Both the position numbers and the translations under genes were made by a program. Positions 3,936-22,999 of a stretch of 25,608 bases of DNA are shown in pieces. Where the stretch lies: positions 1-25,608 of IMG/VR virus record IMGVR_UViG_3300035670_001146, one strand, 5' to 3'. The notes under the pieces were generated by a model. That model worked only from the letters and a program-made list of their open reading frames with translations, was not told where the DNA came from and searched no databases. Each line of letters opens with the position of its first letter. Positions within the stretch are counted from its first letter, which is position 1. This DNA is from a virus.

Positions 3936-3968
3936 CAATCGCGCAGGGGCGGGCGCAAGAGAGGCAAC

Positions 3969-5092: not shown

Positions 5093-5106
5093 AATGGAGT
5101 AAAATG
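5087..5106 (+). repeat. Exact 10-bp tandem duplication spanning a stop codon
   Basis: GAGTAAAATG occurs twice in immediate succession (5087-5096, 5097-5106). The first copy contains the stop codon of the HExxH gene. It looks like a recent slippage duplication in the gap before the fibre genes. Confidence 0.7.
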
Positions 5107-5120
5107 TAACGAGAGGCACA

Positions 5121-5732: not shown

Positions 5733-5740
5733 GAGGCAGA

Positions 5741-6025
5741 ATGTCTTATATTGTGGGCGATGCGATAACCATCACGGCGACAATCACAAACTCAAGCGGG
5801 ACGGCAACCGACCCGACAGAATTGACATTACAGGTAAAAGACCCAAGCGGAAATACTGCCTTATATACTTATTCACTGTCTGAGATTACAAAATCTTCAA
5901 CGGGGGTGTATTATAAATCGGTTGCATTGGATGAGGCGGGGTACTGGTTTTGGGAATGGCAGGCAACCGGAACAGTAGCAAAGGTAGATAACGGTAGTGT
6001 TCACGTATTGGCTCAACTGATATGA
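5741..6025 (+). CDS. Small Ig-like virion protein
   Basis: A 94-residue beta-rich protein with the alternating Thr/Val pattern of an immunoglobulin-like sandwich: TITATITNSSGTATDP near the start, LTLQVKDPSGN in the middle and YYKSVALDEAGYWFWEWQA near residues 57-75. Small single-domain proteins like this are common in phage fibre regions. An AGGAGG ribosome binding site lies just upstream of the ATG, and its stop overlaps the tailspike start as ATGA. Likely an adaptor or fibre component; this is inferred from fold and position. Confidence 0.6.
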   Translation: MSYIVGDAITITATITNSSGTATDPTELTLQVKDPSGNTALYTYSLSEITKSSTGVYYKSVALDEAGYWFWEWQATGTVAKVDNGSVHVLAQLI

Positions 6026-7632
6026 CGATTTCAACCGCAATCACGTCTGATAATATTTCATCCGCAGTAACGTCCGGTAACATTGTTACAACAATAACCG
6101 AATCGTATGGTGTAGCTGTTTCACTTTCCGCCAGTAGTGCAACGAGTAATGTAATCCACATGGTTGTCACGTTTTCAAACCCCGTTTCAGGTTTCGCGGT
6201 TGGTGACATCACCATTTCGGCGGGCGGGTCATTGGCGAACTTTGCAGGAAGCGGATCCGAATATACGGTTGACTGGACGTTGGCGAGCGGTGCTAATACT
6301 TTCGACATTGCCGCCGATGTATGCACATCCACAGCGGGAGGGCTTGGCAATAGCGCGGCAGCACAGTTTGACGCTGGGTATTTGACCATGCAACCAGACA
6401 GCACCGCAGACGTTGACACGGTTCTAAAATTAAACGACTCTGCTAATTATGTAACCGCCACTAGTATATGGCTTGGAAATATAGCCGGAACGGTCAGGCG
6501 GTTGTTATTACGATTTGATACAACTGTCATTCCCAACGCGGCGACAATATCATCCAGTGTATTGACACTGAACCAAGAGGGCGAGAACTCGTCCAACGCC
6601 CGCCGTATTGAGATTTACAGGCTTGAACGTCCATTTGTGATGAATCAGGCTAGTTATTATGTATACTCAGTAGGCGTTGACGGTAAATGGCAGACGGATT
6701 TTTGTGACGGGGCAAATGATCGGGAGCAGACCGAATGGGTTGGTAGGAACGTGACTGCCACAGAAGCGAACGGCGCAAAAACTTTTACGCTTCCAGTTAC
6801 TGCAAAGGCGGATTTTGGGGAATATGGCTGGCTCGTCAAGTTGAATGATGAGTCTGCGGATTCGTATTTGATGTCCACATGTAATAGCACAACCGCCGCC
6901 AATCGTCCAAAGTTGGTCACGGTCTATTATGTCAACCCGTCAACAGAGTACACAGTGCCGGAAATGGACACGCCTTACTATTTCCCCGAAGGTTGGGAGG
7001 TATCATTTTTGGAAGAGTTTGCAGACCTTGACGCTTGGAACATGCGGACAGGCGAAAATATTGTATATCAAGATACTGTTTGGATCGAGGCGAATAATAC
7101 CATCCGTGAGGGCGGCGGCTTGCGCCAGGTCGGGAGTGATGTACTGGTAGACGGTAAATATCAGGGCGCGTTGCTGATTTCAGACGATGATTATAAATAC
7201 GGGTATTTTGAGTGTTACTGCAAACTCCCGACAGGGTACATCTGGCCCGCTTTCTTTTTGTATGATGAAGATCGCGACGATATTACAGTGCCTAAAAACG
7301 AGATAGACATTTTTGAGATACTTGGAACGAACATAATTTATGTCACCACCCATTTGTCAAATGCAATCAGCTACAGTTATACAAAGATATGGACAAGCGT
7401 TTTACAGGGTGAGTATCACAAGTGGGGTTGCTATTGGGACACGGACGGGATCACTGTTTATATTGATGATTTCCCGATTGTTACATTTCCGCCCGAAGAA
7501 ATGCCAACGGCTCGATTGCATATTTTGTTTCAATGGAGTTTTGATGGATTTGCCAACCCTCCTACTAATGTCACATTCCCCGCCTATTTCGATGTCGATT
7601 GGGTGAAGGTCTGGACAAAGGCAAACAGATGA
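6022..7632 (+). CDS. Tailspike-like protein: Ig-like + DNRLRE-like + GH16 glycoside hydrolase
   Basis: A 536-residue multidomain protein. Residues about 25-120 resemble a bacterial Ig-like domain (VVTFSNPVSGFAVGDITISA). Residues about 122-305 are a DNRLRE-like domain whose NARRIEIYRL, YGWLVKLNDESADSY and NRPKL blocks parallel the protein encoded at 5121-5732. Residues about 325-536 are a glycoside hydrolase 16 (laminarinase/agarase-type) domain with YGYFECYCKLP and the catalytic signature EIDIFE (Glu427 nucleophile, Asp429, Glu432 acid/base). GH16 enzymes usually cut beta-1,3 or beta-1,4 linkages in glucans and galactans. In a phage this suggests a depolymerase that opens host exopolysaccharide during adsorption. 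The start overlaps the previous stop as ATGA. The exact substrate cannot be told. Confidence 0.8.
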   Translation: MTISTAITSDNISSAVTSGNIVTTITESYGVAVSLSASSATSNVIHMVVTFSNPVSGFAVGDITISAGGSLANFAGSGSEYTVDWTLASGANTFDIAADVCTSTAGGLGNSAAAQFDAGYLTMQPDSTADVDTVLKLNDSANYVTATSIWLGNIAGTVRRLLLRFDTTVIPNAATISSSVLTLNQEGENSSNARRIEIYRLERPFVMNQASYYVYSVGVDGKWQTDFCDGANDREQTEWVGRNVTATEANGAKTFTLPVTAKADFGEYGWLVKLNDESADSYLMSTCNSTTAANRPKLVTVYYVNPSTEYTVPEMDTPYYFPEGWEVSFLEEFADLDAWNMRTGENIVYQDTVWIEANNTIREGGGLRQVGSDVLVDGKYQGALLISDDDYKYGYFECYCKLPTGYIWPAFFLYDEDRDDITVPKNEIDIFEILGTNIIYVTTHLSNAISYSYTKIWTSVLQGEYHKWGCYWDTDGITVYIDDFPIVTFPPEEMPTARLHILFQWSFDGFANPPTNVTFPAYFDVDWVKVWTKANR

Positions 7633-7862: not shown

Positions 7863-8428
7863 ACAAAAAGCAGGCGCTATTTGTAGACTACTATTTACAG
7901 TCTTTTAACGCGTCTGATGCGGCAAGGAAAGCGGGGTATTCAGGGAAAACGGCATACTCACACGGCTCGCGTTTGTTGAAAGATGTTGAGATTTCAGCTG
8001 TAATCCAAGAACGATTGGCAGAAGTCCACATGAGCGCGGAAGAAGCATTAAAACTTACCGCTGATATTGCGCGCGGCGACATAGCGCAATTGATGGACGT
8101 TTCTTCTATGGGTTTCAGTCTCGATATGAGCAAGGCGAAAGAATTGGGATTAACTGGACTTATAAAGAAAGTCAAACAGCGCACTATTACACATTTAGCA
8201 AAAAGCGAAAGCGATGAGGATAGGGAGGTCATTGATTTGGAGGTTGAGTTATATGATAAGCAATCAGCGCTCCGCGATATTTTGAAGATACACGGAAAAT
8301 TCATCGAACGAACGGACGTGACCAGCGGCGGCGAGCCGTTGACGCCAAAGATAAGCGATGAGGATAAGATGCAACGCATGAAGGAACTCGCGCAGGCAAT
8401 AGCGCAGGAGATGAACAAGAGTGCTTGA
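7859..8428 (+). CDS. terS: Terminase small subunit
   Basis: A 189-residue protein that should bind phage DNA at the packaging start site and present it to the large subunit. The first 55 residues match the Terminase_2 (small subunit) pattern: ALFVDYYLQSFNASDAARKAGYS, then TAYSHGSRLLKDVEIS, a helix-turn-helix-like DNA-binding region. The central and C-terminal parts are charged and helical, as expected for an oligomerising ring protein. The GTG start overlaps the previous TGA (GTGA) and has GGAAGGGG upstream. It lies directly before the large subunit gene, the usual order. Confidence 0.88.
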   Translation: MNKKQALFVDYYLQSFNASDAARKAGYSGKTAYSHGSRLLKDVEISAVIQERLAEVHMSAEEALKLTADIARGDIAQLMDVSSMGFSLDMSKAKELGLTGLIKKVKQRTITHLAKSESDEDREVIDLEVELYDKQSALRDILKIHGKFIERTDVTSGGEPLTPKISDEDKMQRMKELAQAIAQEMNKSA

Positions 8429-9827
8429 CACGTATCTGAAAGAATGGGAAGTGTTGACCTATGATATGGTTTGGCAACCGCACCCCGCAAATTTTCCACA
8501 GGTCAATGCCTACTTTTCAGACGCTTTTGAAATACTTTACGGAGGCGCGGCGGGTGGTGGAAAGTCTGATTTATTATTAGGACTTGCCCGCACCATGCAC
8601 CGCCGTTCTTTACTATTGCGTAGGACATTCCCAGACTTGGAGCGGTCGCTTATTTCACGCTCTTTAGAGTTCTTTGGCGACAGGGGCGGATATAACGCAA
8701 GCAAGCATTTTTGGATGGTTGATGGCAGGCGTATCGAGTTTGGTCACATGGAGCGGGTCGGAACGCCACAGGTGCCGGGTGATGAATCGCAATATGCCTC
8801 CGCTCCGTATGACTTCATAGGATTTGACCAGTTGGAGCAGTTCCCAAAATACGCTTATGAGTTCATGTTTTCGCGTGCAAGATCAGCAGACGGGAAACGG
8901 GTCAGACTGGTATCGAGCGCCAATCCAATCGGTGAGGGTATAGAATGGATTATGCAACGCTGGCGGGCTTGGCTTGTAACGAAAGAAGCAAAGCCGGGTG
9001 AAATTAGATGGTATAAGCGGGACATTGACGGTAACGACGTGGAAACTACGAAGGATGACCCTGATGCACTTTCCCGCACATTCATTCCCGCAGGCTTGAA
9101 AGATAACCCGTTTTTAGGTGAGCAATATCGCCGCCAGTTGATGAGCATGGAGCCGATGTTGAGGGACGCACTACTAAATGGTGATTGGTCTGCCATGCTT
9201 ACAGATGACGCCTATCAGGTACTGCCGAGGGCATGGGTACAAGCGGCAATGGACAGATGGACACCTGAGCCGCCTGAAATGCTTCCGCTTGTTATTGGTG
9301 GAGATGTGGCAAGGGGCGGTGATGATAAGACCGTCAACGCGCCGAGGCGTGGCAGGTGGTTCGATAGGTTACAGAAACATTCAGGAAGGTCAACACCGGA
9401 TGGTCAAAGCGTTGTCGCTTTGTGGCAGGTATTGGGTGGGTCAATCAATGCGGATGTGATCGGTGTTGGTGCTTCCGCCTTTGACATTGGCAGGGAAAAG
9501 GGATTATCCATCACTCCCATAAACTTTGCAAACAAAAGCGACAGGACGGATAAAAGCGGACGGTTGCAATTTATAAATAAGCGGGCAGAATGTTACTGGT
9601 TATTTAGGGAAGCATTGGACCCGTCCAGTGGTTCAAATATCATGCTGCCGCCCGATGACGAACTACGCGCCGACTTGTGTGCGGCACGCTGGACAATGCA
9701 GAGCAACGGAATCAAGATAGAGGCAAAGGAAGATATAAAGAAACGTTTGGGCAGGTCGCCCGATTGTGCTGACGCGGTTGTGTTGGCTTGGGTTCCTGCT
9801 GAGTGGCTGATTAGCAGTTACGATTAG
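8421..9827 (+). CDS. terL: Terminase large subunit
   Basis: The 468-residue DNA-packaging motor ATPase and headful or cos nuclease. The Walker A block GGAAGGGKS is at residues 41-49. A Walker B-like IGFDQLEQF is near 133-141, with Gln following the Asp where Glu is more usual and Glu two places later. An SSANP coupling motif follows. The RNase H-like nuclease domain shows GGDVARGGDDKT near residue 295, VIGVGASAFD downstream, and the final acidic block SPDCADAVVLAW. The GTG start overlaps the small subunit gene by eight bases, and AGGAG lies ten bases upstream. The length is typical of terminase large subunits. Confidence 0.93.
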   Translation: MLDTYLKEWEVLTYDMVWQPHPANFPQVNAYFSDAFEILYGGAAGGGKSDLLLGLARTMHRRSLLLRRTFPDLERSLISRSLEFFGDRGGYNASKHFWMVDGRRIEFGHMERVGTPQVPGDESQYASAPYDFIGFDQLEQFPKYAYEFMFSRARSADGKRVRLVSSANPIGEGIEWIMQRWRAWLVTKEAKPGEIRWYKRDIDGNDVETTKDDPDALSRTFIPAGLKDNPFLGEQYRRQLMSMEPMLRDALLNGDWSAMLTDDAYQVLPRAWVQAAMDRWTPEPPEMLPLVIGGDVARGGDDKTVNAPRRGRWFDRLQKHSGRSTPDGQSVVALWQVLGGSINADVIGVGASAFDIGREKGLSITPINFANKSDRTDKSGRLQFINKRAECYWLFREALDPSSGSNIMLPPDDELRADLCAARWTMQSNGIKIEAKEDIKKRLGRSPDCADAVVLAWVPAEWLISSYD

Positions 9828-9834
9828 GAGCAAC

Positions 9835-11652
9835 ATGGCAAAGATAACATTTATGAACGGGCGCGAGATGAAAACGATTGACCCCTGGCATAGTGACGGG
9901 GAGATGTGGAAATATTCAACCGAACCGCCAGCATCCGAGAAGAAAGAGTTATATAGCCGTGTTGCAGCGGTATATCGTGCCGTCAACTTCACAGCGTCAA
10001 CGCTGGCAAACATGCCTTTTGCGGTGGTCAAGGGTGGTACTGATATTGACACAAGCGACGAATGGAAAAATGCAGTCGGCTTTATGCCCAATCCCCGCCA
10101 CTTGCTGAGGATGTGGACGCAATCGCTGTTGATGACAAATAAGGCATTCGGGTTTCAGGAAACGAAGGGAAGCCGATTATTGAATTTGCGTTACATTGCC
10201 CCGTCAACCATAACGAAGATGAAAACAGACGAAACGGGCGCGCTGGCAGGGTTTGAGCGTACCATTGGAACGACTGCCACATACTACCCCATCGAAAAGG
10301 GTTTCTGTAATATCTTTTATATCTTCAATCTGAATTGGGAGAATGAACTACTGCCAGATGACACCACCCCATTCAAAGCAATGATGAACGCGGCGGGTAT
10401 CGGATACTATGCAGACCTGTTCATCCGAGACTTCTTTGAGCGCGGTGGAATCAAGCCGACAATCTTGACATTTGACGGCGTGATGGATAAGGTTTCAGCG
10501 ACAGAGGTTGAGTCTGTTTGGACGAAAGTCATTCGCGGCTGGTATAAGTACATGGGCAAGGTGTTTAATGGAAAGTTCACCCCCATCACCATTGGCGACG
10601 GCGTGGAAAGTTTGCAGAAGCAGAACATTTACGATAATGCCCTGCGTAATATCGCTATTGCGGTGGGTATGCCACAGGACGCACTATTACAGAATGCGGA
10701 CAGTTACGCAACCGCACAGGTACATAAAAGCACGTGGTTTACTGATACCTTGACACCGATGGCATACAGTATGCAGGAGCCATTGAACAACCAGATATTC
10801 GAGCGTCTTGGGTATCGCTTCGAGTTTCGACCTGAGGGCGCCGAGCCGAGCATGGAAGAGGAAAGCCAACGTGTGGCAGGTGCGAAAACACTCTACCAGA
10901 TTTTATCTGACGCCCGCCGTGTGGATGCTGATAAGGCGGCAATCGAAGCGTTTGGAATTGACATGCCTCTCTGGTTTACATGGGAAGAAAAAGAACCAGA
11001 ACCCATCCCGCCACAACTTACAGGACAGCAACCAGCGGGAAACGTTGATGATATGGAAGATGTTGATTATGAGCCATACGAAGAGCCTATAAATATGCGG
11101 TCAGTATTCAACGTCAACCAGTTACGGGAGATGAAAACATGGCAGGATATAGCCTATCGTAAACTCAAGCGCGGTAACAGTCTTGTATTTGACTGGACGC
11201 CAAAGGACATTAGCGCGGAAGTTGCAGCACAGATCAAAGCGCGTTTGGATGTTGCTACTACTGAGGCAGAAATCAAGGCGGCGTTTGAAGTGGATCCGCC
11301 TAGTATGCCAGTTGTGGAAACTAACGACAATGAAATTAAGGCACTGGCTGAGGCGATAAACAAACTCGCAGAGAAGCATGACGCCCAGCCTGTGATCGTC
11401 AACCTGCCCGCCACGTCGTTTACCTTGAATGAAAAGGCGGTGGAAGTCAAGGCGGAGGCGCCGATTGTAAATGTCAACGTACCGGAACAGCCAGCCCCAG
11501 TGGTGAATGTGACAAATGAAGTCAATCCAACCCCTGTTGAGGTAATCAATAACATTGATGTTAAACCAGCCCCGGTGAAAGTGGATAAACCGAAGCGGGC
11601 GCGGGTGGTTCGTGACAGGGAAGGACGCATTGAAGGACTCGAGGCGCAATGA
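9835..11652 (+). CDS. Portal protein (HK97-type) with extended C-terminal tail
   Basis: A 605-residue protein forming the dodecameric vertex through which DNA enters and leaves the capsid. Family features include YSRVAAVYRAVNFTASTLANMPF near residues 40-63, NPRHLLRMWTQSLLMTNKAFGF near 86-108, IAPSTI, NIAIAVGMPQDALLQNADSYATA near 273-295, and PLNNQIFERLG. After about residue 410 the sequence changes to a long tail with Pro/Val/Asn repeats (VNVNVPEQPAPVVNVTNEV) ending in a basic RVVRDREGRIEGLE block. Similar tails occur in portal or MuF-type proteins of related phages and may contact other head proteins. AGGAG lies just upstream of the ATG. The end overlaps the next gene as ATGA. Confidence 0.9.
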   Translation: MAKITFMNGREMKTIDPWHSDGEMWKYSTEPPASEKKELYSRVAAVYRAVNFTASTLANMPFAVVKGGTDIDTSDEWKNAVGFMPNPRHLLRMWTQSLLMTNKAFGFQETKGSRLLNLRYIAPSTITKMKTDETGALAGFERTIGTTATYYPIEKGFCNIFYIFNLNWENELLPDDTTPFKAMMNAAGIGYYADLFIRDFFERGGIKPTILTFDGVMDKVSATEVESVWTKVIRGWYKYMGKVFNGKFTPITIGDGVESLQKQNIYDNALRNIAIAVGMPQDALLQNADSYATAQVHKSTWFTDTLTPMAYSMQEPLNNQIFERLGYRFEFRPEGAEPSMEEESQRVAGAKTLYQILSDARRVDADKAAIEAFGIDMPLWFTWEEKEPEPIPPQLTGQQPAGNVDDMEDVDYEPYEEPINMRSVFNVNQLREMKTWQDIAYRKLKRGNSLVFDWTPKDISAEVAAQIKARLDVATTEAEIKAAFEVDPPSMPVVETNDNEIKALAEAINKLAEKHDAQPVIVNLPATSFTLNEKAVEVKAEAPIVNVNVPEQPAPVVNVTNEVNPTPVEVINNIDVKPAPVKVDKPKRARVVRDREGRIEGLEAQ

Positions 11653-12536
11653 GCAACGTCACTTATAGGAGCAACGATAACCAGGCGGGTGCGATACCTG
11701 TTGACACTGTAATTGAAACGGAATTACAAGGTGACAATTCACAGCGTCAGGTGGTCAAGGCATACACGACTAGCGAAGATGAACTTACCGATTATTTCGG
11801 TGAAGTGGCATACGGGAACATTACAGGGCGAACCGTTGTAAATAAGTTCGGTATTGCCCCATCAGGGATACAAACTTCGATTACCGACGTTTGGAGCAGG
11901 GCGGACGCCGCCGCAACGCAACCCGTATGGTTGGCTCCTACCGCCGCCCGCGTTCATGCAATCGTTTCATCTTCTGCGGCTGATACCGGATTCAATGTGC
12001 GTGTCTATGGCTTGACTTCATGGGATACCGCAGAGACAAGCGAACTGGTTGCATTGAATGGCACAACGCCAGTCAACACCGTGAACAGTTACGTTATCAT
12101 CCACCGGATGAAGTGCATTTATACCGCTGCAAAGACCACCAACGCGGGAGTCATTAGTGCAACAGCGGCAGATGACGCGACAATAACGGCGGTGATTGCT
12201 GTTGGTGACGGTCAAACAGAAATGGCAATCTATGGCGTGCCTTCGATACAAAAGGCGTTATTGTGGCGGTGGGGCTGCTCGATTGATGGAGCATCCGCCG
12301 CCGCTGCAACGGTTGATTTTCAATTGCGTGTGAACGAGAACCCCAATGTACAAACGACGGGATTCTTACGCAAGGAAGATATGGGACTACAATCAACAGG
12401 CGCAAACTCTTTTGACAGGTATTGGAAAATACCGCCAGTCTTTGCGGGTCCGTGCATTATCAAGGTATCAGGCATCGGCTCTGCAAACGACATTGACGCA
12501 AAGAGCGGATTCGATTTGGAATTGGTTACTATATAA
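11649..12536 (+). CDS. Putative virion structural protein, 295 aa
   Basis: A soluble, Ala/Thr-rich, beta-prone protein with no named domain that I recognise. Notable blocks are DYFGEVAYGNITGRTVVNKFG near residues 48-68, VWLAPTAARVHAIVSSSAADTGF near 93-115 and GQTEMAIYGVPSIQKALLW near 187-205. The composition and position directly after the portal fit a phage structural protein, perhaps of the head or its decoration. It is coupled to the portal gene by ATGA and to the next small gene by TAATG. Sequence alone does not give a specific role. Confidence 0.6.
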   Translation: MSNVTYRSNDNQAGAIPVDTVIETELQGDNSQRQVVKAYTTSEDELTDYFGEVAYGNITGRTVVNKFGIAPSGIQTSITDVWSRADAAATQPVWLAPTAARVHAIVSSSAADTGFNVRVYGLTSWDTAETSELVALNGTTPVNTVNSYVIIHRMKCIYTAAKTTNAGVISATAADDATITAVIAVGDGQTEMAIYGVPSIQKALLWRWGCSIDGASAAAATVDFQLRVNENPNVQTTGFLRKEDMGLQSTGANSFDRYWKIPPVFAGPCIIKVSGIGSANDIDAKSGFDLELVTI

Positions 12537-12688
12537 TGTTGCTACTTTGGTATACTCCTCCACGAGCAGGCGCACAGATGCAAATTGCGCGTCATTTGAT
12601 GCAACGAATCAAGGAACAATACTACGTCAGGGATGACGAAGAGGCTCTCATACTGGCGTGGTGGTATCTAATCACAGGAGATAAATAA
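12536..12688 (+). CDS. Hypothetical protein, 50 aa
   Basis: A very small gene bridging two larger ones: its ATG overlaps the previous stop and its TAA overlaps the next ATG, both as TAATG. The product begins MLLLWYTPPRAG and continues with a helix-prone charged segment ending in AWWYLITGDK. It also carries the AGGAG (12676-12680) that serves the next gene. No family is recognised. The double coupling is the best evidence that it is translated. Confidence 0.5.
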   Translation: MLLLWYTPPRAGAQMQIARHLMQRIKEQYYVRDDEEALILAWWYLITGDK

Positions 12689-13005
12689 TGGCACTTTCAA
12701 AGATTTTGAGCGGACAAATCAGCTTGACGGCGGCAGTCGCCACACAGGGACCAGATGTAGGGAATATGTCATCTGGGTTATTCATCACCTTCCCCGGCAA
12801 GAATACCAGCACCTACGCATGGGTCGGGAACACGGCAAAGGAAACGTCCAGCGATGTTTCATCCTCCGACCTGTTCTACCTCAAAGATGACGGGTTGTTG
12901 TATTTTGAGGAAGGGCGCATTGCCAATCTAAACGAGTTGTGGGTCATGGGAGCAACGGACGCCAGCACAGACGGAAGTGACGTGATATGCTGGATTACGG
13001 GGTAG
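12688..13005 (+). CDS. Small virion-like protein, 105 aa
   Basis: A 105-residue beta-prone protein rich in Ser, Thr and Asp. The N-terminal region is LSGQISLTAAVATQGPDVGN and the C-terminal part contains LFYLKDDGLLYFEEGRI and ELWVMGATDASTDGSDVICW. The composition resembles small decoration or fibre-base proteins. AGGAG lies seven bases before the ATG. Its last 19 bases overlap the start of the radical SAM gene, so the cargo cassette begins inside this structural gene. No specific function can be assigned. Confidence 0.55.
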   Translation: MALSKILSGQISLTAAVATQGPDVGNMSSGLFITFPGKNTSTYAWVGNTAKETSSDVSSSDLFYLKDDGLLYFEEGRIANLNELWVMGATDASTDGSDVICWITG

Positions 13006-13790
13006 ACTTCCCCGATGTTGTCCGCATAGAAACGGCGGGCAGGTGTAATTTCAGATGCAGACATTGCCCAATTGAGAATTTGCGCGGGCTGTTGTCTTTT
13101 GAGTCATTTGTAGACATATTCACCCGCCTGCCATTCGTGCCGCGTGTTCTGGTCTTGTATCACGGTGGCGAACCGATGCTCAATAAAGACCTTGAGCGGA
13201 TTGTAGAGTTTGCATATATTCACGGTGTGCAAAAGACTACACTTGTCACCAATGCGTCACTCATCCGACCCATTCCTTACCTAACCGAGATGCGCGTTTC
13301 GTTCGATGGTACAACGCCGGAAGAAAACGACTATATCAGGATTGGCGGTAATTTCAGCAAGCACGCCCCGAAGGTGTTGGAGATCGCAAAGAAGCAAAAG
13401 GTGGTTATCAATAACACCTATGCCACAGGCGGAGAGGTTGCCACTGTCCCGCAATACCTGAAAGACTTTTTCGGGGATTGGGTCGAGTATAAATCCGTCC
13501 CGATGCACCAATGGTCCACACAGGAAACACCCTACGGGGAAACCGTATCACGCCCTACGGGTGCGCGATACTGCTCGAACCTGTTCGAGACATTCACAAT
13601 CCTGGCGAATGGCGACGTGGTGAAATGCTGCGAAGATTTGAACGGTGAATTTGTACACGGTAATATCTTACAAAATTCAGCGGTTGAAATATGGGAACGG
13701 ATGCGGGATATTCGTAAGAATTTTAGGAAGGGGATATATCCCGAACAGTGTAAAAAGTGTGCCATAGTGGCAGGTATATACATCAAGTAG
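12987..13790 (+). CDS. Radical SAM protein with SPASM-like C-terminal domain
   Basis: A 267-residue enzyme. CNFRCRHC at residues 20-27 is the canonical CxxxCxxC site binding the 4Fe-4S cluster that cleaves S-adenosylmethionine to a 5'-deoxyadenosyl radical. HGGEP at 59-63 and the TNAS and RVSFDG blocks match the radical SAM barrel. The C-terminal part carries Cys196, Cys214, Cys215, Cys255 and Cys258, in the layout of a SPASM/twitch auxiliary cluster domain (ILANGDVVKCC, PEQCKKC). Such proteins modify peptides or small sugars, among other substrates. Here the gene overlaps a virion gene by 19 bases and precedes a methyltransferase and glycosyltransferases, so a role in building or modifying a decoration is plausible. 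The substrate is unknown. Confidence 0.85.
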   Translation: MLDYGVDFPDVVRIETAGRCNFRCRHCPIENLRGLLSFESFVDIFTRLPFVPRVLVLYHGGEPMLNKDLERIVEFAYIHGVQKTTLVTNASLIRPIPYLTEMRVSFDGTTPEENDYIRIGGNFSKHAPKVLEIAKKQKVVINNTYATGGEVATVPQYLKDFFGDWVEYKSVPMHQWSTQETPYGETVSRPTGARYCSNLFETFTILANGDVVKCCEDLNGEFVHGNILQNSAVEIWERMRDIRKNFRKGIYPEQCKKCAIVAGIYIK

Positions 13791-13802
13791 AAAGGCTAAT
13801 AA

Positions 13803-14450
13803 ATGAATTTCAATCGTCAAGAGTTCTTCCGCTATCCATCCAAAGCAAACGAAGAAATCAGGAAAATTAACGGTGGGAAGCTGTACCGTTTCACACAACC
13901 TGAATTTTACCTAAAGATGGATGTTGGCTTAAAAATGATGTTATCCGTCATTCCCCGCTGGATTTTGCCTGATATGTCAATTCTTGAATACGGGTGCAAT
14001 ACGGGGAAATGCTTATCCATGCTGCATAGCAAAGGCTACACCAATTTGACGGGCTTGGAGATCAGCCCCGAAGCGCTGGAACTTGGGCGCAAACATTACA
14101 ACGGACTTGAGGGGATAAATATTATCAATGCGCCGCTTGAGGACGTAGTAAACGACTTGCCTGAGTTCGATGTCATCTATGGCGTGGGGGTATTGATGCA
14201 CCTGCCCTACGATTTGGATTGGGTCATTCATACGCTATTTAGCAAGGCAAAATACCTGATAATGACCGCAGAGAACGAAGAGGAAACGGACGGATATTTC
14301 AAATTCGCCCGCAATTACAAGGACATTATCGAGCCTTTAGGCTGGGCGCAAATCAAAAAGGAACACGGCGACCAGTACCCGCCCTATCCACACAGCACGA
14401 TCAAGCGCGTTTTCTTGCGGGATGAAAGCCAGTCATTCGATGAAGAATGA
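13803..14450 (+). CDS. Class I SAM-dependent methyltransferase
   Basis: A 215-residue protein with the Rossmann-type SAM-binding signature ILEYGCNTGKCLSML near residues 60-74, followed by the acidic strand end LTGLEIS (Glu near 86), an INAPLED segment and FDVIYGVGVLMHLP near 125-138. These are motifs I to IV of class I methyltransferases. The N-terminal 50 residues (RQEFFRYPSKANEE) may bind substrate. A TAGAAAGG ribosome-binding element precedes the ATG. The target (sugar, protein or small molecule) is not shown; the neighbours suggest a sugar or peptide. Confidence 0.82.
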   Translation: MNFNRQEFFRYPSKANEEIRKINGGKLYRFTQPEFYLKMDVGLKMMLSVIPRWILPDMSILEYGCNTGKCLSMLHSKGYTNLTGLEISPEALELGRKHYNGLEGINIINAPLEDVVNDLPEFDVIYGVGVLMHLPYDLDWVIHTLFSKAKYLIMTAENEEETDGYFKFARNYKDIIEPLGWAQIKKEHGDQYPPYPHSTIKRVFLRDESQSFDEE

Positions 14451-15051
14451 TACTTGTATTATTATTGGGAACGGTCCAAGCCTGAATGATGTACCGATGG
14501 GGTTTCTTCAAAAGTACCCGACATGGGGAGTAAATAAGATATTTTTACAGCGTGCGGATGGTCACATTATCCGCCCTGATTACTATGTGACAGTTCATGC
14601 GGACATGGCGCCACTTGCGGAAGAAATAAAATCGCTCAATTCGCAGATGTTCATCACTGACAAAATAGCGCACCTGTTCCCAGGGTGTCAACCGATTCAC
14701 TCTGTTGGTGAACATGCCTTTTTCAAAAGACACGGGAAACGTTGGGATCTGTGGGAAGGATGGAGCGTGATTTATGTATGTTTGCAGTTGGCTTATTGGC
14801 TGGATTTTAGAACAGCCCTGCTCGTGGGACTTGACCATGATTACACTTTCGGGTCATTCCACCCAGACTATGACAATGTTACCGGGACAGACCCACACGA
14901 CCAGGACAAGCTACTTCCCGCATTCAGACTGGCTAAACAGTATTGGGAAGCGGACGGTAGACGAATAATCAACATAACGCCGAACACAAAGGAACCGATA
15001 TTCGAGAAAGGATATATAACAAAATGGTTTCCATCATTATTGTGGGAGTGA
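14422..15051 (+). CDS. GNGPSL-motif DUF115-like protein
   Basis: A protein of about 209 residues with a Rossmann-like opening CIIIGNGPSLNDV (GNGPSL at residues 16-21), WGVNKIFLQ, PDYYVTVHADM, and later a GWSVIYVCLQLAYWLDFRTALLVGLDHDY block. This is the arrangement of DUF115/MptE-like proteins, a group including flagellin-modification (Maf-type) and pterin enzymes that act on phosphorylated or nucleotide-activated substrates. Start choice is open between ATG 14422 and ATG 14440; neither has a strong ribosome binding site, and both overlap the methyltransferase gene. It is a probable relative of the N-terminal half of the protein at 21034-22182. A role in glycan transfer is inferred from neighbours. 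Confidence 0.7.
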   Translation: MKASHSMKNDTCIIIGNGPSLNDVPMGFLQKYPTWGVNKIFLQRADGHIIRPDYYVTVHADMAPLAEEIKSLNSQMFITDKIAHLFPGCQPIHSVGEHAFFKRHGKRWDLWEGWSVIYVCLQLAYWLDFRTALLVGLDHDYTFGSFHPDYDNVTGTDPHDQDKLLPAFRLAKQYWEADGRRIINITPNTKEPIFEKGYITKWFPSLLWE

Positions 15052-15662
15052 AACGCTGGGAGGACTATACAAAGCCGTTCCTTGACAGCCTGAAACGAAA
15101 CGCGCCGACGTTGAATGTAGTTTGCGTGGATAATGGCTCATTCTATCCAGATTACGAAGGCGTGAAGATGGTCAGGACGCCAAATGTAATCTCCCTGCCC
15201 GCCGCGTTCAATGTGGGGCTAAAAGAAACACCCGATTCAGACTGGTATATAACGTCCAGTAATGACATGCTGATTACAAAGCCATTCCCCGCATATCGTT
15301 TCGAGTACATGGAGGATGACAGTCTGTATTCATTCGTTCATGTGGTGGATGCGCTTTACGGCTTTGAATATATCGAGAATTGGATGTTGTTCACGCCCCG
15401 CAAAGTCTATGAGGGGATCGGTAAATGGTGGGACGAAGCCTTTGCCCCAATGTGGTTTGAGGCGGCGGATTATGCGATCAGGGCAAAGAAAGCCGGGTAC
15501 AGGTGGACGATAATAGATCGTGAAGATTGGGGCGTGTATCATAGAGAAGAGGAACGAATGCCGGAACGTAAAGCATACATGAAGGAACACATGCCACAAC
15601 GCAAGGCGAACCGTGAATACTTGATGAGGAAGCATGACATCCCGTATAAGCGCCCTGGTTAG
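15024..15662 (+). CDS. Glycosyltransferase family 2-like protein (1)
   Basis: A 212-residue GT-A-fold protein. It begins MVSIIIVGVKRWEDYTKPFL, with the nucleotide-binding end of the first strands at VVCVDNGS (about 32-39). FNVGLKETPDSDWYITSSNDM follows, where NDM at 80-82 replaces the common DxD. WFEAADYAIRAKKAGY and the final HREE block complete the fold. Family-2 enzymes move sugars from nucleotide sugars to acceptors. The C-terminus is very basic (RKAYMKEHMPQRKANREYL). It overlaps the preceding gene by 28 bases and the next by 29, so the three act as one translational block. Donor and acceptor are unknown. Confidence 0.78.
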   Translation: MVSIIIVGVKRWEDYTKPFLDSLKRNAPTLNVVCVDNGSFYPDYEGVKMVRTPNVISLPAAFNVGLKETPDSDWYITSSNDMLITKPFPAYRFEYMEDDSLYSFVHVVDALYGFEYIENWMLFTPRKVYEGIGKWWDEAFAPMWFEAADYAIRAKKAGYRWTIIDREDWGVYHREEERMPERKAYMKEHMPQRKANREYLMRKHDIPYKRPG

Positions 15663-16281
15663 TGGTTACTATTCAGAGGATTATATTGAAACACGGCTAA
15701 TCAACCTGAAAAAGCAGGACTGTGAAATTGTGCTTATCTGTCAGGCGGGAAGCGCAGAGCATGAGATTGGGATGCAGTATGGATTGACCCCGATACTAAC
15801 CCCAGACATCCCGCCGCTGTATACGGCTTGGAACATGGGAATCAAACAATCACAGGGGAAGTATCTTACCAGTGCAAACACAGATGACTTATTCCACGAT
15901 AACGCCCTGACTATCATGGCGGATGAATTGGACAGGACGGGCGCGGCGATTTGTCACAGTTGGTTACATCGGAACACTGGCGGGACATTGGAACTGTGGG
16001 AGCGTACTACGGGCGATTACAACAAACTGAAAACGAGATGCTTCCCCGGTCCAATGCCGATGTGGAGAAAATCACTGCATGAAAAATACGGTTACTTCGA
16101 TGAGTCTTTTCAAGTAGCGGGCGATTGGGAATTTTGGCTTAGAGTAATGAAAGCGGGGGAAAAAGCATGTCATATTGAGCGCTCATTGGGTGTATACTTA
16201 TGGCGTAAAAAGAGTCTGGAACGGCGCGATGTGCAATTACACATAAAGGAACGCGAGCGGATAAGGAAGATGTATAAATGA
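15634..16281 (+). CDS. Glycosyltransferase family 2-like protein (2)
   Basis: A 215-residue GT-A glycosyltransferase: ISALVSGYYSEDYIETRL at the N-terminus, WNMGIKQSQGKYLTSANTDD at about 66-85 (TDD is the metal-binding DxD equivalent), and the acceptor-side block YFDESFQVAGDWEFWLRVMKAG at about 150-172. These match the family-2 order closely. ATG 15634 lies inside the previous gene, and no start inside the remaining frame would preserve the first strand. Its TGA overlaps the MuF-like gene start as ATGA, so cargo and head genes are translated without a break. It is more canonical than its neighbour at 15024. Confidence 0.85.
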   Translation: MTSRISALVSGYYSEDYIETRLINLKKQDCEIVLICQAGSAEHEIGMQYGLTPILTPDIPPLYTAWNMGIKQSQGKYLTSANTDDLFHDNALTIMADELDRTGAAICHSWLHRNTGGTLELWERTTGDYNKLKTRCFPGPMPMWRKSLHEKYGYFDESFQVAGDWEFWLRVMKAGEKACHIERSLGVYLWRKKSLERRDVQLHIKERERIRKMYK

Positions 16282-17084
16282 CGGATATAGTGCGAGACAC
16301 CATACAGACGATTACAAAGCGATTGCCCGCCATTGTCCCTTATCTGCATGGAAAGGCGGGGAGATTGTATTGTGAAGTCAAGGCAGTTGAACGCGACCCC
16401 AAAGAACCCATGCGGGATGAAAAGAGCAAGACTGAAAACAAGATCAGGCTTGCCATTTTACGACGTTTCAAGCGTCAGTTTGCCGCCATTCTCGAGGGTG
16501 TACAGGCAAACTATAAAGACATTATCGCCGCTGGCGTGTACGTCCAGAACGAGCCAGAGGAAATCAACGAATTGGTAATCTTATTGCGTAACGCAATCCT
16601 GGCGGGGATTTATGACCTTGAGGGTGAATTGGGATACACATTAGGCGAAACGGTTGTAAATGAGCGGGCGTTGCAGTTTGCGCGGGAGTATGTCACCGAT
16701 TGGGTGGCGAAACTTGACCAGACTACCGTTGATGCTTTGCGTCAGGCTTTGTCACTTATGCCAAGCGGTCAGGCGTCTTATGCTGATGTAGTTGCAATAT
16801 TAGAGCCTGTATTCGGGAACAATAGAGCGTTGAGGATTGCGGTCACAGAAACGACCCGCATTTATGCAGAGGCGACACAGATTTACGCCAATGAACTGGT
16901 AAAAGAATACCCAGGATTCAAGGTGATAAAACGCTGGTATACAAACGTGGACGATAGGGTCTGCCCAATTTGTGCGCCATTGGACGGGATGGAAGTTGCG
17001 CATGATGAAGATTTCAACGACGTTGAAAATCCGCCCGCCCATGTAAATTGTCGGTGTTGGATAACGACAACGGTGAAATCATAA
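16278..17084 (+). CDS. MuF-like minor head protein
   Basis: A 268-residue head morphogenesis protein. The C-terminal Phage_Mu_F signature is clear: TETTRIYAEATQIYA near 190-204, then VCPICAPLDGM (Cys229, Cys232) and PPAHVNCRCW (His255, Cys258, Cys260), which likely bind zinc. The N-terminal 120 residues are helical. MuF-like proteins are carried in the head, near the portal, and are sometimes injected. Here the gene is separated from the portal by a virion gene, two small genes and a five-gene cargo cassette, whereas portal and MuF are usually close neighbours. It overlaps both flanking genes (ATGA at the start, TAATG at the end). Confidence 0.88.
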   Translation: MTDIVRDTIQTITKRLPAIVPYLHGKAGRLYCEVKAVERDPKEPMRDEKSKTENKIRLAILRRFKRQFAAILEGVQANYKDIIAAGVYVQNEPEEINELVILLRNAILAGIYDLEGELGYTLGETVVNERALQFAREYVTDWVAKLDQTTVDALRQALSLMPSGQASYADVVAILEPVFGNNRALRIAVTETTRIYAEATQIYANELVKEYPGFKVIKRWYTNVDDRVCPICAPLDGMEVAHDEDFNDVENPPAHVNCRCWITTTVKS

Positions 17085-17579: not shown

Positions 17580-17676
17580 GGGACTGGACGGGCGCAGGTT
17601 GCGCGAAAATCCATAATCCCCTGCTGTTGATAGGTTATCAAAGCACAAATGACCGACATGGTTGTTTGTGCTTTTT
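17580..17676 (+). promoter_or_regulatory. Structured leader of the capsid gene: three hairpins, two mutually exclusive
   Basis: The 142-base gap before the capsid gene contains ordered inverted repeats. The first is a three-step stem: 17580-17583 with 17617-17620, 17585-17588 with 17610-17613, and 17592-17596 with 17600-17604. The second pairs TTGATA (17627-17632) with TATCAA (17636-17641), extended by TGCT and AGCA (17622-17625, 17642-17645). The third pairs AAAGCACAAA (17640-17649) with TTTGTGCTTT (17665-17674) and continues into a T-run ending at 17676, like a terminator. Hairpins two and three share 17640-17645 and cannot both form fully, which is the logic of an attenuator. A weak promoter-like pair (TTGTGG at 17552, TAATAA at 17574) lies upstream. 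Confidence 0.55.
17640..17676 (+). terminator. Terminator-like hairpin just before the capsid gene
   Basis: A perfect ten-base inverted repeat (17640-17649, 17665-17674) with a 15-base loop runs into a T-run (17672-17676). It ends 14 bases before the capsid start and five before the GAGGTG ribosome binding site. It could end transcription from upstream, with partial readthrough, or act as the terminator arm of an attenuator. Confidence 0.5.
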
Positions 17677-17690
17677 GCGTTGAGGTGAAT

Positions 17691-19403
17691 ATGGAAGAAT
17701 TAGAGACATTGGTAACTTTCGGTGATGCAATCAAGGCTCTCGGAGACAATAAATTCGGCGGGTATCTTGTGCGCTTTTCATCCCCAGAAGACCCGGACTT
17801 GACGGGCGATTTCTTCACGCCTGAAACTGATTACGACGTGGATTTTCCTGCAAAGTCAACCGTGTACTTCAATCACGGATTGGATAAGAACCTGAAACAC
17901 CGCAAACTTGGAAAGGCTGATTTATCCGTTGACGATGTTGGGGTGTGGGCAGAGTTCATCATGCAGGAGCGGGATGATTACGAAAAGGCGCTCGCAGAAC
18001 TGGCAAGGGCTGGAAAGTTGGGGTGGAGTTCTGGGACCGCCGCGCATCTTGTCGAGAGAACCCCGGTTGGAAAATCATACAGAATTGATAAGTGGTCATT
18101 GGGATTGGATGCAAGCATCACGCATACACCCGCAGAACCACGCAATGCGGTAGTGGCTCTAAAGTCATTACTACCACAGGAGAATAAGGACATGGAAAAA
18201 GAGGAAATGGTTGCACTGCTTGGTGATTTCAAAACCGAAGTGGTCAACGCGGCGAAAGAATCGGCTACCGCCGCAGTAAAGCAATTTGCCGATGAACTTG
18301 CCCCCGAAGTAAAAGCAGGATTCGCGGGGCATGTGGAGATCGTGAAGGATGAAGCCGACCAGCCCATGAACGCGGGTGACTTCCTCAAAGCGGTCAAGAA
18401 TGCCGCAATGCCGGGTGCTTCGCTTGACCCGCGTCTGAAATCACGCATGTCGGACGATGGATTTGTGGTCAAGAACATCAAAGCCACAGGCATGAACGAA
18501 GCCATTCCATCACAGGGCGGCTTCCTGGTACAGCAGGACGTACAGGCTGGCATTCTTCAACGGATGTACGGTGTTGGTCGTCTGCTTTCGTTCTTCAACC
18601 CCTTGACCGTATCAGGTAACGGGATGCTTATCAACGCGATTGACGAAACCAGCCGCGCCGATGGCTCCCGCTTTGGTGGCGTGTTGGGGTACTGGCTGAA
18701 TGAGGGCGGAACAAAGACCGCCACGAAGCCGAAATTCCGACAGATTGACCTGAAACTCAAAAGGGTTGCGGCTTTGTGCTACGCAACCGATGAACTGCTT
18801 GACGATGCTACCGCTCTTGAGGGGTGGATTAATCAGTATGTTCCCGAAGAACTGCGGTTCAAGGTTGAGGATTCAATCGTCAACGGCGACGGTGTTGGGA
18901 AACCGCTTGGTATTCTGACTTCGCCCGCGCTTGTGTCTGCAACCCGTACCGATGCGAGCGAGATTGACCACCTTGACATTGCCCGCATGTGGGCGCGGCG
19001 TTGGGTCGGTGTGTCAGATTACATTTGGCTTGCCTCCCCCAACATTCACCCGCAATTGATCAGCATGTCAGTTGGACAAATGCCCGTTTATCTGCCTCCC
19101 GGCGGAATGAGTGCATCACCTTACGGGACGATTTACGGACGCCCGCTTATCGAAACCGAATATAACCCCGCCCTCGGCACTTTGGGCGATTTGATGCTGG
19201 TCAGTCCTTCACAGTACGCCATGATTCAAAAAGGTGGCATTCAATCGGCATCTTCGATTCACGTCCAATTCGTGACCGATGAAACCGCCTTCCGCTTCGT
19301 GTACCGTGTGGATGGGCAACCCGCTTGGAATAGTGCCTTGACCCCGTTCAATGGTTCGAGCGATACCGTCAGCCCGTTCGTTGCTTTGGCTGCGACCACC
19401 TAA
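17691..19403 (+). CDS. Prohead protease-major capsid protein fusion (HK97-like)
   Basis: A 570-residue fusion. Residues about 1-160 match HK97-type prohead protease (peptidase S78-like): GGYLVRFSSPEDPDLTGDFF, His62 in YFNHGLDK, LGWSSGT with the likely nucleophile Ser113 or Ser114, and ASITHTPAEPRNAV. Residues about 168-245 are a charged helical segment, the expected delta (scaffold-like) domain. From about residue 265 the HK97-fold capsid appears: GGFLVQQDV, PKFRQIDLKLKRVAALCYATDELL, DSIVNGDGVGKPLGIL and the final RFVYRVDGQPAW. The product assembles the shell, and the protease then removes the delta domain. ATG 17691 has GAGGTG just upstream; the upstream ATG at 17649 lies in the leader hairpin and is rejected. 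An internal start near 18192 may give capsid without protease. Confidence 0.9.
   Translation: MEELETLVTFGDAIKALGDNKFGGYLVRFSSPEDPDLTGDFFTPETDYDVDFPAKSTVYFNHGLDKNLKHRKLGKADLSVDDVGVWAEFIMQERDDYEKALAELARAGKLGWSSGTAAHLVERTPVGKSYRIDKWSLGLDASITHTPAEPRNAVVALKSLLPQENKDMEKEEMVALLGDFKTEVVNAAKESATAAVKQFADELAPEVKAGFAGHVEIVKDEADQPMNAGDFLKAVKNAAMPGASLDPRLKSRMSDDGFVVKNIKATGMNEAIPSQGGFLVQQDVQAGILQRMYGVGRLLSFFNPLTVSGNGMLINAIDETSRADGSRFGGVLGYWLNEGGTKTATKPKFRQIDLKLKRVAALCYATDELLDDATALEGWINQYVPEELRFKVEDSIVNGDGVGKPLGILTSPALVSATRTDASEIDHLDIARMWARRWVGVSDYIWLASPNIHPQLISMSVGQMPVYLPPGGMSASPYGTIYGRPLIETEYNPALGTLGDLMLVSPSQYAMIQKGGIQSASSIHVQFVTDETAFRFVYRVDGQPAWNSALTPFNGSSDTVSPFVALAATT
18178..18194 (+). promoter_or_regulatory. 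Possible internal ribosome binding site and start (Met168) in the protease-capsid gene
   Basis: AGGAG at 18178-18182 lies nine bases before an in-frame ATG at 18192-18194. That is the junction between the protease domain and the helical delta domain. Starting there would give a capsid precursor of 403 residues without protease, solving the stoichiometry problem of a 1:1 fusion. Confidence 0.5.
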
Positions 19404-21033: not shown

Positions 21034-22182
21034 TTGAAAGATACCGTTGCCATTGTAGGAAGTCACCCCAAGACGCGGACAGAGTTTGATTTCACGCGGA
21101 CGGATTGCGACATTTGGGTGTTCAATGAGGCACTAAGCAACCCAAGCGAAACATGGTGTCCTCGTGCGGATGCGGTTTTCCAGATGCACGCCCCGGTCAT
21201 TTGGAAGAACCCGAAGAACAGAAACCACGCGGGGCATTACGACTGGCTGAAAACACAAACTGAGACAGTCGTTTACATGCAGGATAAGTATGATGACGTG
21301 CCGAAATCGGTACGCTTCCCACTTGAAGATGTTTTTCAAGGCTTGCACTTTAACAAACGCTATATTACTTCATCGGTTGCTTATGCCTTGGCACTCGCCG
21401 CGTCCATGAACTACAAAAAGATTGAACTGTACGGCGTGGAGATGGAAACGGACACAGAGTATAGATACCAGCGCGACGGCGTGGCTTTGTGGGTCGGTGT
21501 GGCACTTGGCAGGGGCATCGAGGTCGAGTTGCATTGTGGGATGCTATCCGCCCCGCTGTATGGGTATGAAGGCGATGTAAAGATTGACTACAAACTGTTT
21601 ACAGACAAGATTGAGGAAGTCAACGCCAAACAACCAGACATCGAAGCGCAGTATAACGAAAAGATGAAAGCGACATCCGAGAAGATCAAGCATTTCATGG
21701 AAACTGGCAAGGATGGAGGCGAGATCGTCAAGGCGGTGCAGGAGCAATTGCATCACGGCATTCAGTTCGGGCAATTGGATGGTGTCAGGCAGGAGAATGA
21801 ACGCTATAAGGACAAAGCCGATACCATGATTGCCGCCTCCGGTGAATTCATCTTTTCAAGGCAGGAGTTTGAGGCAGCGCGACAGGCTTTGAATAAAAAG
21901 CAGGTCGAGTTAATGCAGAAAAGCAACGTACTTGCTGGACAGGTTGACGCCGCTTTCAAACGTGCGGAGAAAGTCAAGAATAAGCAACGCCGCAAAAAGG
22001 TTATGACCGATTTCATCAAGATGATGGACGCCTACATCAAAACGACCATTACCACCGCCATGATAGTGGGTGCAATCGAAGAAAACACACGCCTGTTAAA
22101 TATCCTTGACGAGAAGATCAAGGCGGCGGGCGGGTCCAAGTCTGAAGAGGTCATGTTGGAGGCGTATGCGAATCGGTCTTAA
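21034..22182 (+). CDS. DUF115-like N-domain fused to a long coiled coil
   Basis: A 382-residue protein starting at a TTG with AAAGG upstream; an ATG four bases earlier is in another frame and stops early. Residues about 1-180 resemble the GNGPSL/DUF115-type protein at 14422: VAIVGSHPKTRTEF at the N-terminus (GSHPKT in place of GNGPSL), CDIWVFNEAL, and VAYALALAASMNYKKIELYGVEM in the middle. Residues about 190-360 are highly charged and helical (EKMKATSEKIKHFMETG, YKDKADTMIAASGEFIFSRQ), probably a coiled coil. The fusion may tether a sugar- or nucleotide-binding domain to a structural partner. It overlaps the next glycosyltransferase gene by 17 bases. The enzymatic activity is not established. 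Confidence 0.65.
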   Translation: MKDTVAIVGSHPKTRTEFDFTRTDCDIWVFNEALSNPSETWCPRADAVFQMHAPVIWKNPKNRNHAGHYDWLKTQTETVVYMQDKYDDVPKSVRFPLEDVFQGLHFNKRYITSSVAYALALAASMNYKKIELYGVEMETDTEYRYQRDGVALWVGVALGRGIEVELHCGMLSAPLYGYEGDVKIDYKLFTDKIEEVNAKQPDIEAQYNEKMKATSEKIKHFMETGKDGGEIVKAVQEQLHHGIQFGQLDGVRQENERYKDKADTMIAASGEFIFSRQEFEAARQALNKKQVELMQKSNVLAGQVDAAFKRAEKVKNKQRRKKVMTDFIKMMDAYIKTTITTAMIVGAIEENTRLLNILDEKIKAAGGSKSEEVMLEAYANRS

Positions 22183-22999
22183 TCCCCTACGCTCTGCAAA
22201 GGTCGGATACTACCATCCCGTTATTCTTGCAGTTATCACCCACCTGCCCAATATGGAAGGGTATCACGAACACAGGCTGGAAGTTATCCAACGGTGCATT
22301 CAAAGTATGACAGAGTTTGCGGGACGCCCTTTCAGCCTTGCGGTTTGGGATAACGGCTCATGTCAATCGCTAAGGAACTGGATACCACTACTCAAGCCCG
22401 CTGTATTCGTTCAATCTGAGAATGTCGGTAAAGCATCGGCGCGAGTGGCATTGTTTCGGATGTTCCCGCCTAATAGCATTATCGCCATGAGTGACGACGA
22501 CATTTTATATTATCCCGGCTGGCTTGATGCTCAAATGGAATTACTCGAAACATATCCGAATGCGGCTTGTGTTTCAGGTAATCCGATTAGGACATCATTC
22601 CGCTGGGGATGTGAGAATACTAAAAAGTGGATGAAGAAGAACGCCAGTTTAGAGGTAGGCAGATTCATCCCCGACCAATACGAGCGTGATTTCTGTATAA
22701 GCATTGGGCGCGACCCGGTAGTTCATAAAAAGAACACGCTAAAGGATATGGACTACAGAGGACAATATAAAGGTGTGTACGCTTATGCGACATCTCATCA
22801 TTGCCAGTTTATCAGCGTGGCGGGCAGGGTGCTTGGCGCGATGAAGTACGATAACGACGCAATGGGCGACGAAAAGCCCTTTGATATAGCGATGGATAAA
22901 ATAGGATTGAGATTGTCAACAGTGAAACGGTACTCACGTCACATTGGCAATTTTATACACGATGAATTGAGAAAAGACATTAGAAATTTGGGACTTTAG
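22166..22999 (+). CDS. Glycosyltransferase family 2-like protein (3)
   Basis: A 277-residue GT-A protein. ATG 22166, with GGAGG just upstream, is preferred; an extension in frame to 22106 would add a basic segment overlapping the previous gene. Motifs: VILAVITHLPNMEGYHEHRLEV at 19-40, LAVWDNGS at 58-65, ENVGKASARVALF, and MSDDDILYYPGWL at 108-120, where Asp110-Asp112 is the metal-binding DxD. The second half contains VSGNPIRTSFRWG and YATSHHCQFISVAG. It lies between the tail terminator-like gene and the tail tube gene. Its product may glycosylate a virion protein or a host surface sugar; no acceptor can be read from the sequence. Confidence 0.85.
   Translation: MRIGLNPLRSAKVGYYHPVILAVITHLPNMEGYHEHRLEVIQRCIQSMTEFAGRPFSLAVWDNGSCQSLRNWIPLLKPAVFVQSENVGKASARVALFRMFPPNSIIAMSDDDILYYPGWLDAQMELLETYPNAACVSGNPIRTSFRWGCENTKKWMKKNASLEVGRFIPDQYERDFCISIGRDPVVHKKNTLKDMDYRGQYKGVYAYATSHHCQFISVAGRVLGAMKYDNDAMGDEKPFDIAMDKIGLRLSTVKRYSRHIGNFIHDELRKDIRNLGL

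Follow-up and report, generated by a model that had tools for sequence, protein, structure and literature searches.

The stretch of DNA analysed here, referred to as the window, is the whole of IMG/VR record IMGVR_UViG_3300035670_001146 (25,608 bases), which derives from an uncultivated tailed phage and carries a cassette of five sugar-related genes within its head operon. Open reading frames (ORFs) were called with a simple ORF script. The window contains lysin, terminase genes, portal, vir295, sm105, the five-gene cassette and MuF. These are followed by a protease-capsid fusion, the small gene deco167, connector/neck genes, u382, GTc, a presumed major tail gene and a tape-measure-like gene, where the names deco167, neck, connector and tail were given by position. 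As described in an earlier note on this DNA, five intact ORFs on the same strand are found between portal/sm105 and MuF, at 12987-16281 (Table 1). They encode a radical S-adenosylmethionine (SAM) protein (rSAM), a SAM methyltransferase (MT), an MptE-like/DUF115 protein and two glycosyltransferases (GTs) of the GT2 type, GTa and GTb. Four of the five family assignments made in that note lie above the Pfam cut-off; the weak one is GTa, whose match is sub-threshold.

The label "radical SAM/SPASM" given to the first protein was correct as to its SPASM Pfam match but not as to the full SPASM cysteine set. In addition to a CX3CX2C motif at residues 20/24/27, the protein has four C-terminal cysteine positions (196, 214/215, 255 and 258) with a twitch-like spacing, and its 18- and 3-residue spacings are repeated in the radical SAM protein of a related record (L155). 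The nearest solved relative is BtrN (1.6e-5), which is matched by the C-terminal residues 203-259 only. BtrN oxidises an aminocyclitol, and a sugar is therefore a plausible substrate for rSAM. For MT, the nearest NCBIfam model is TIGR03587, a pseudaminic-acid-associated methylase (7.9e-11), with a score of 42.5 bits that is far under the cut-off of 112.05.

The junctions of the cassette are tight, as the earlier note had stated. sm105 and rSAM overlap by 19 bases, and a 12-base gap separates rSAM from MT. MT and the MptE-like gene overlap by 29 bases, or by 11 if translation of the latter starts at 14440, the start with which homologues align better. Further overlaps of 28 (MptE-like/GTa), 29 (GTa/GTb) and 4 bases (GTb/MuF) follow. 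No terminator-like site was found on the + strand of the cassette region, and promoter-like sites were no more frequent than in shuffled sequences. Given the common strand, the overlapping junctions and the lack of a terminator-like site on that strand, the cassette is probably expressed together with the head genes, late in infection. The cassette does not stand out by its codon usage as newly acquired, as only the MptE-like gene and GTc deviate (z about -2.9, compared with -2.3 for the terminase gene TerL).

The MptE-like protein is predicted to be a GT42/Maf-fold protein and a putative glycosyltransferase. Its PF01973 score is 35.9 bits against a gathering cut-off of 34.6, and its relatives in L096 and L107 fall under this cut-off. 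The best structural match of its AlphaFold model (predicted local distance difference test [pLDDT] 84.3, predicted template modelling score [pTM] 0.85, 15 sequences) is the flagellin glycosyltransferase Maf (5mu5; Z 13.6, root mean square deviation 3.3, 176 of 203 residues), followed by CstII sialyltransferases (Z about 11.5). A sequence profile of the protein independently finds CstI (1.5e-4) and CstII (about 6e-3). The likeness to Maf thus comprises the Pfam match and a top-ranking fold match that spans almost the entire protein. The MptE-like protein has invariant Asp, His and Tyr residues in a GxDHxY motif. However, Maf is a multi-domain protein of more than 600 amino acids in a flagellar context, whereas the MptE-like protein has 203-209 amino acids and is encoded in a phage head operon with no flagellin context. 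In a library of predicted viral structures, the MptE-like fold is present in many uncultured phages.

A second pair of sugar genes, u382 and GTc, which the earlier note did not mention, is found downstream of the capsid gene at 21034-22999. In the u382 model (pLDDT 85.8), residues 1-173 form a GT42-like domain (match to Cst-I, Z 10.5, 160 residues), which is followed by a long C-terminal helical bundle; no identity was drawn for the bundle, which matches many unrelated helical proteins. The CstI/CstII (GT42) fold is therefore common to the MptE-like protein, where it is accompanied by profile-level sequence similarity, and to the N-terminal domain of u382. The identity of the window proteins to CstI/CstII is 13-20%. 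Homologues of GTc are 40-51% identical and conserve the motifs VWDNGSC, DDD and HHCQ.

The cassette recurs in a second record, IMGVR_UViG_3300043432_000045 (L136), for which twelve genes were compared with the window. The block sm105-MT-MptE-GTa-GTb is found there in the same order, with amino acid identities of 70, 63, 65, 82 and 50%, respectively, GTa being the best conserved of the twelve genes. The portal, capsid, deco167 and TerL proteins are 64, 79, 73 and 43% identical, and MuF has no full-length match. Judged by these identities, the cassette genes are about as conserved as portal and capsid, and most sugar genes follow the virion genes more faithfully than terminase or MuF do. Because the block recurs in order, its arrangement appears to be beyond chance. 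The rSAM gene is missing from L136 at precisely its own junction, from the stop of sm105 to the start of MT, which leaves four genes and makes rSAM a separable unit. The terminase of the window (8421-9827) is BPP-1/Limnohabitans-phage-like, and its 43% identical counterpart in L136 is located at 3964-5445. In L151 (1700-2917) and L156 (4681-5925) the terminases are apparently of another type though portal and sugar genes are shared, which points to strong mosaicism.

The earlier note raised the possibility that the cassette is gained or lost as a block. Instead, the interval between portal and capsid genes proved to be modular, with four of the five genes in L136, different cassettes or none in other relatives, and related genes also downstream of the capsid gene. 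The related IMG/VR records are possibly fragments, their slot contents were classified partly by eye, and the contigs are related to one another, so that contig counts are not independent. In IMGVR_UViG_3300028840_000716 (L151/L155), the gene order is portal, vir295 (a homologue in the equivalent place, 1e-180), sm105, MuF, a thiamine diphosphate (ThDP) enzyme, an RfbH-like gene, a short-chain dehydrogenase/reductase (SDR) epimerase, MT, a second SDR, radical SAM/SPASM and capsid. The RfbH-like protein, a CDP-4-keto-6-deoxyglucose-3-dehydrase homologue (4.6e-95 to 3bcx), scores just under the NCBIfam RfbH cut-off (386.7 versus 423). It resembles enzyme E1 of the Yersinia-type CDP-3,6-dideoxysugar pathway and likewise has a ThDP enzyme beside it, but is encoded in a phage head operon. 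In IMGVR_UViG_3300013137_000709 (L090/L156), portal and MuF are followed by p166, a GT-like protein (assigned by eye, without Pfam support), an HNH endonuclease, a GT2, an FkbM methyltransferase, RmlC, a methyltransferase-like protein, GTb and then capsid. L102-L104 carry GTc and a Methyltransf_24-like protein between portal and MuF, and nothing separates portal from MuF in L011. Of the GT2 matches above cut-off in 11 records of the clade, mapped by hand, all 15 fall between portal and the major tail protein. The interval is thus a slot for differing sugar cassettes, and the window set is one example of a wider pattern.

Homologues of these genes are also found in a second slot. u382 and GTc occupy it in most relatives, frequently accompanied by a Methyltransf_24 protein; several relatives additionally have an MptE-like, GTb, RmlD-like (as in L137) or GT34-like gene there. 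L102-L104 have GTc in the portal-MuF slot, other records in the neck-tail slot, and homologues thus move between both slots. MptE-GTb single-chain fusions are encoded in L143 (7959-9494) and L147 (7947-9512), two other phages, where the fusion comes after capsid and a small protein and has a GT61 gene beside it. A weak sulfotransferase-like gene (PF13469, below cut-off) is found a few genes past u382 in L113 (8200-8793).

Searches with single proteins recovered few relatives. Exact-peptide scans with rSAM alone and with the major capsid protein alone found none, and the sole match of the GTa scan was the L136 contig. With tblastn, the MptE-like protein, GTc and u382 had no match among cultured phages, the portal had no match among phages, and rSAM had only 26-30% partial matches, in three faecal contigs. 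The single match of a genome scan with u382 was a 6-kb contig (L148, 1-6066) in a metagenome-assembled genome binned as Candidatus Izemoplasmatales, which carries neck, u382, MptE-like, GTc and major tail genes. This contig, possibly a binning error, is the sole hint of a host and is too little for naming one.

Table 1. Coordinates of the sugar genes and neighbouring head genes; positions refer to the window unless another record is named.
Feature	Position	Strand	Evidence and remarks
Radical SAM protein (rSAM), 4-Cys twitch-like C-terminus	12987..13790	+	PF04055 1.9e-9; SPASM PF13186 1.1e-10
Class I SAM methyltransferase (MT)	13803..14450	+	Methyltransf_25 PF13649 8.7e-10
MptE-like/DUF115 protein, predicted GT42/Maf-fold glycosyltransferase	14440..15051 (alternative start 14422)	+	PF01973 7.9e-9
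GTa, GT2-type glycosyltransferase	15024..15662	+	Sub-threshold Pfam GT2, 18.3 bits vs cut-off 23.3
GTb, GT2 glycosyltransferase	15634..16281	+	Glycos_transf_2 PF00535 3e-7
u382, GT42-fold domain and helical bundle	21034..22182	+	Conserved in relatives
GTc, GT2 glycosyltransferase	22166..22999	+	PF00535 2e-8; 17-base overlap with u382; GGAGG upstream of start
Portal	9835..11652	+	PF04860 2.3e-19; L136 identity 64%; left border of interval
vir295, probable accessory virion protein	11649..12536	+	phrog_8198 (unknown function) 6e-17
sm105, small Ser/Thr-rich protein	12688..13005	+	L136 identity 70%; homologues in L151, L152
MuF-like head morphogenesis protein	16278..17084	+	PF04233 4e-14; right border of interval
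Protease-capsid fusion (major capsid protein)	17649..19403	+	PF05065 6.9e-34; weak Peptidase_S78 match N-terminally
Sugar cassette of L151/L155, between MuF and capsid genes	L151 6990-12019; L155 16242-17285	- (L155)	

Taken together, it is probable that the cassette is responsible for the late, cytoplasmic glycosylation of virion proteins with an unusual sugar. The earlier note had proposed either a decoration of the virion or a late modification of the host surface; this pair of readings stands, and the evidence leans to the virion. The virion is favoured because of the Maf/GT42-like fold, the predicted solubility of the enzymes, the lack of GtrA in the records covered, the constant place in the head operon and a precedent in the cluster O mycobacteriophages. 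All 25 of the 25 sugar-gene proteins tested look soluble (hydropathy maximum 1.6, versus 2.1 for two membrane controls), and a search of 18 records, all of them fragments, found no GtrA flippase (PF04138). Maf acts in the cytoplasm, where it glycosylates flagellin that has yet to be exported (PMC4065374), and virion-protein acceptors would require the same. Related cassettes also hold sugar chemistry, with RfbH-like, ThDP, SDR, MT and rSAM genes in L151, FkbM, RmlC and GT genes in L090 and an RmlD-like gene in L137. The MptE-GTb fusions, the occurrence of GTc in either slot and the conservation of the cassette genes against L136 speak for the same reading.

In the course of events that we infer, a clade of uncultivated tailed phages carries an exchangeable module for sugar attachment in the head operon, and the cassette would be one form of this module. 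It would be transcribed late with the head genes, and its soluble enzymes would modify virion proteins in the cytoplasm, either ahead of assembly or while it proceeds. An activated sugar may be put on Ser/Thr residues of a virion protein, such as a capsid or decoration protein, by one of the Maf/GT42-fold proteins (the MptE-like protein and perhaps u382 as well) or by a GT2 enzyme. GTa, GTb and the downstream GTc could then extend the sugar, MT could cap it, and rSAM could oxidise or epimerise a sugar. Since cassettes are exchanged, the sugar would vary, and with it the particle surface.

One candidate acceptor is sm105, for which a PHROGs search gave no function. Sugar/methyl genes are present in the head operon of all four sm105-bearing contigs, and a cassette of at least four genes is found in 3/3 contigs with sm105 versus 1/18 without (hypergeometric p 0.003, from related contigs and a by-eye inventory). 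Because of this relatedness and the inventory by eye, the association is suggestive only. Since sm105 overlaps the cassette and recurs with sugar genes, it may be a sugar acceptor.

Several observations weigh against virion glycosylation. The clade is known here from its genes alone, the Pfam match of GTa is below threshold, and the portal-capsid interval has no cassette in 15 of 21 contigs (by-eye inventory). Not every DUF115-fold protein is a glycosyltransferase: an archaeal pterin diphosphokinase is among the structural matches of the MptE-like model (Z 11.0), and the fold alone is no proof of glycosyltransferase activity. An MptE-MT-GTb set is found among replication or lysis genes in two other phages, L138 and L141, so that the link to head genes, though strong, has exceptions. 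In addition, soluble GT2 enzymes can act on lipid-linked host glycans too, and GTs in structural regions have elsewhere been read as modifying the host surface (PMC7029224, PMC8008677).

A bolder form of the virion reading could apply across the clade, and we put it forward tentatively, as rather less than an even prospect. Small Maf/GT42-fold enzymes would attach phage-specified sugars to head proteins, and the swapping of cassettes at a fixed slot would produce an antigenic-like variation of the particle, in some lineages with a phage-made 3,6-dideoxy or branched sugar.

The principal alternative is a late change or building of a host glycan (lipopolysaccharide, capsule or teichoic-type polymer) that keeps competing phages, or the phage's own progeny, from adsorbing. 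RmlC, RmlD, RfbH-like, GT2, GT61 and FkbM proteins are classes typical of surface polysaccharide loci, and there are parallels in the GT and radical SAM cassettes of a pelagimyophage structural-region island, interpreted as O-chain modification (PMC7029224), and in a Gratiaviridae GT between portal and capsid genes, interpreted as capsule modification (PMC8008677). We nevertheless consider it unlikely, as no cassette protein tested has a membrane segment, the 18 fragment records lack a GtrA flippase, the MptE-like protein has a Maf-like fold, and the genes are placed tightly among the head genes, not near lysogeny or early genes.

It is much less probable that the genes are unlinked cargo, that is, metabolic morons in tolerant gaps of the head operon that share no pathway with one another or with the virion. 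The interval does accept insertions, since homing endonucleases occur there. Such endonuclease-like genes, recognized by eye, are found in L094 (4101-4814) and in L156 (9984-10277), the latter inside the sugar cassette. However, the order and identity conserved against L136, the MptE-GTb fusions and the consistent sugar chemistry of differing contents disfavour this explanation, as do the conserved second sugar pair in the same operon and the same multi-gene set in independent lineages, which was partly seen.

Slighter still is the chance that rSAM matures sm105, which the other enzymes would then decorate, in the manner of ribosomally synthesized and post-translationally modified peptides. 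The 19-base overlap of the two genes and the peptide maturases among the weak best NCBIfam matches fit this idea. Nevertheless, sm105 occurs without the rSAM gene in L136, where the rest of the cassette is present, which disfavours peptide maturation; moreover, rSAM is not adjacent to sm105 in L151, and no precursor-like leader was seen. Least likely of all is hypermodification of the packaged DNA by the GTs and rSAM, for although DNA-acting phage glycosyltransferases are known (Pyle 2024, as cited in PMC12619734), no thymidylate-synthase/hydroxymethylase gene (PF00303) was found in the window and 17 related records (fragments, most without early regions), and sugar-nucleotide and FkbM genes do not fit.

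Other genes of the window also encode glycan-related domains. Between the lysis genes and the terminase (5121-7632) are a CBM96/disaggregatase-repeat protein and a GH16 glycoside hydrolase protein, possibly virion proteins that bind or degrade host glycans. The lysin-like protein at 601-2292 consists of a GH25 domain joined to a NAGPA phosphodiester glycosidase domain.

To our knowledge, phage virions are generally taken to be unglycosylated, the clear exceptions being mycobacteriophages. The loci described here indicate that sugar cassettes recur in diverse forms in the head operons of uncultivated phages, use a flagellin-glycosylation fold and include nucleotide-sugar enzymes. If the virion reading is true, capsid glycosylation would be widespread among phages and quick to evolve, and it would matter for the stability of the particle, for adsorption and immune recognition, and for how the many phage proteins now called "MptE-like" are annotated. 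The question is testable, as small soluble enzymes and candidate acceptors are encoded side by side.

Known systems share parts of this arrangement. GtrABC serotype conversion relies on a GtrA flippase and membrane-spanning GTs, neither of which was found here in the 18 fragment records and the proteins tested. The pelagimyophage hypervariable island likewise holds exchangeable sugar/radical SAM cassettes within the structural region; however, these are T4-like myophages, the island lies between VrlC and gp14 beside the tail fibres, and it is interpreted as modifying the host O-chain (PMC7029224). The Gratiaviridae GT also has a late-region position between portal and major capsid protein, but is accompanied by a HipA kinase and an ATPase and interpreted as conferring superinfection immunity (PMC8008677).

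The earlier note knew of no named system in which such genes are combined at this place. In fact, cluster O mycobacteriophages such as Corndog carry three glycosyltransferase genes and one O-methyltransferase gene in the interval from portal to protease (PMC4351075), a layout confirmed on the Firecracker and Catdawg records (L158, L159). PMC12363180, citing Freeman 2023, reports cluster O capsids to be glycosylated and names Corndog gp38 as essential. The window and cluster O share the interval, a SAM methyltransferase, several small soluble GTs and tightly overlapping genes, whereas cluster O has actinobacterial hosts, and the annotation of its interval lists neither a DUF115/Maf-fold protein nor a radical SAM or sugar-nucleotide gene. 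Firecracker gp33-gp36 had no match in phmmer searches of all ORFs of these loci (E 0.1) or to local family hidden Markov models (E 10), and the sole Pfam class that they have in common with the MTs of the relatives is PF13578. From these comparisons the arrangement appears to be rare but known, and the window cassette, with enzymes that have no detectable homology to those of cluster O, appears to be a distinctive new version of it.

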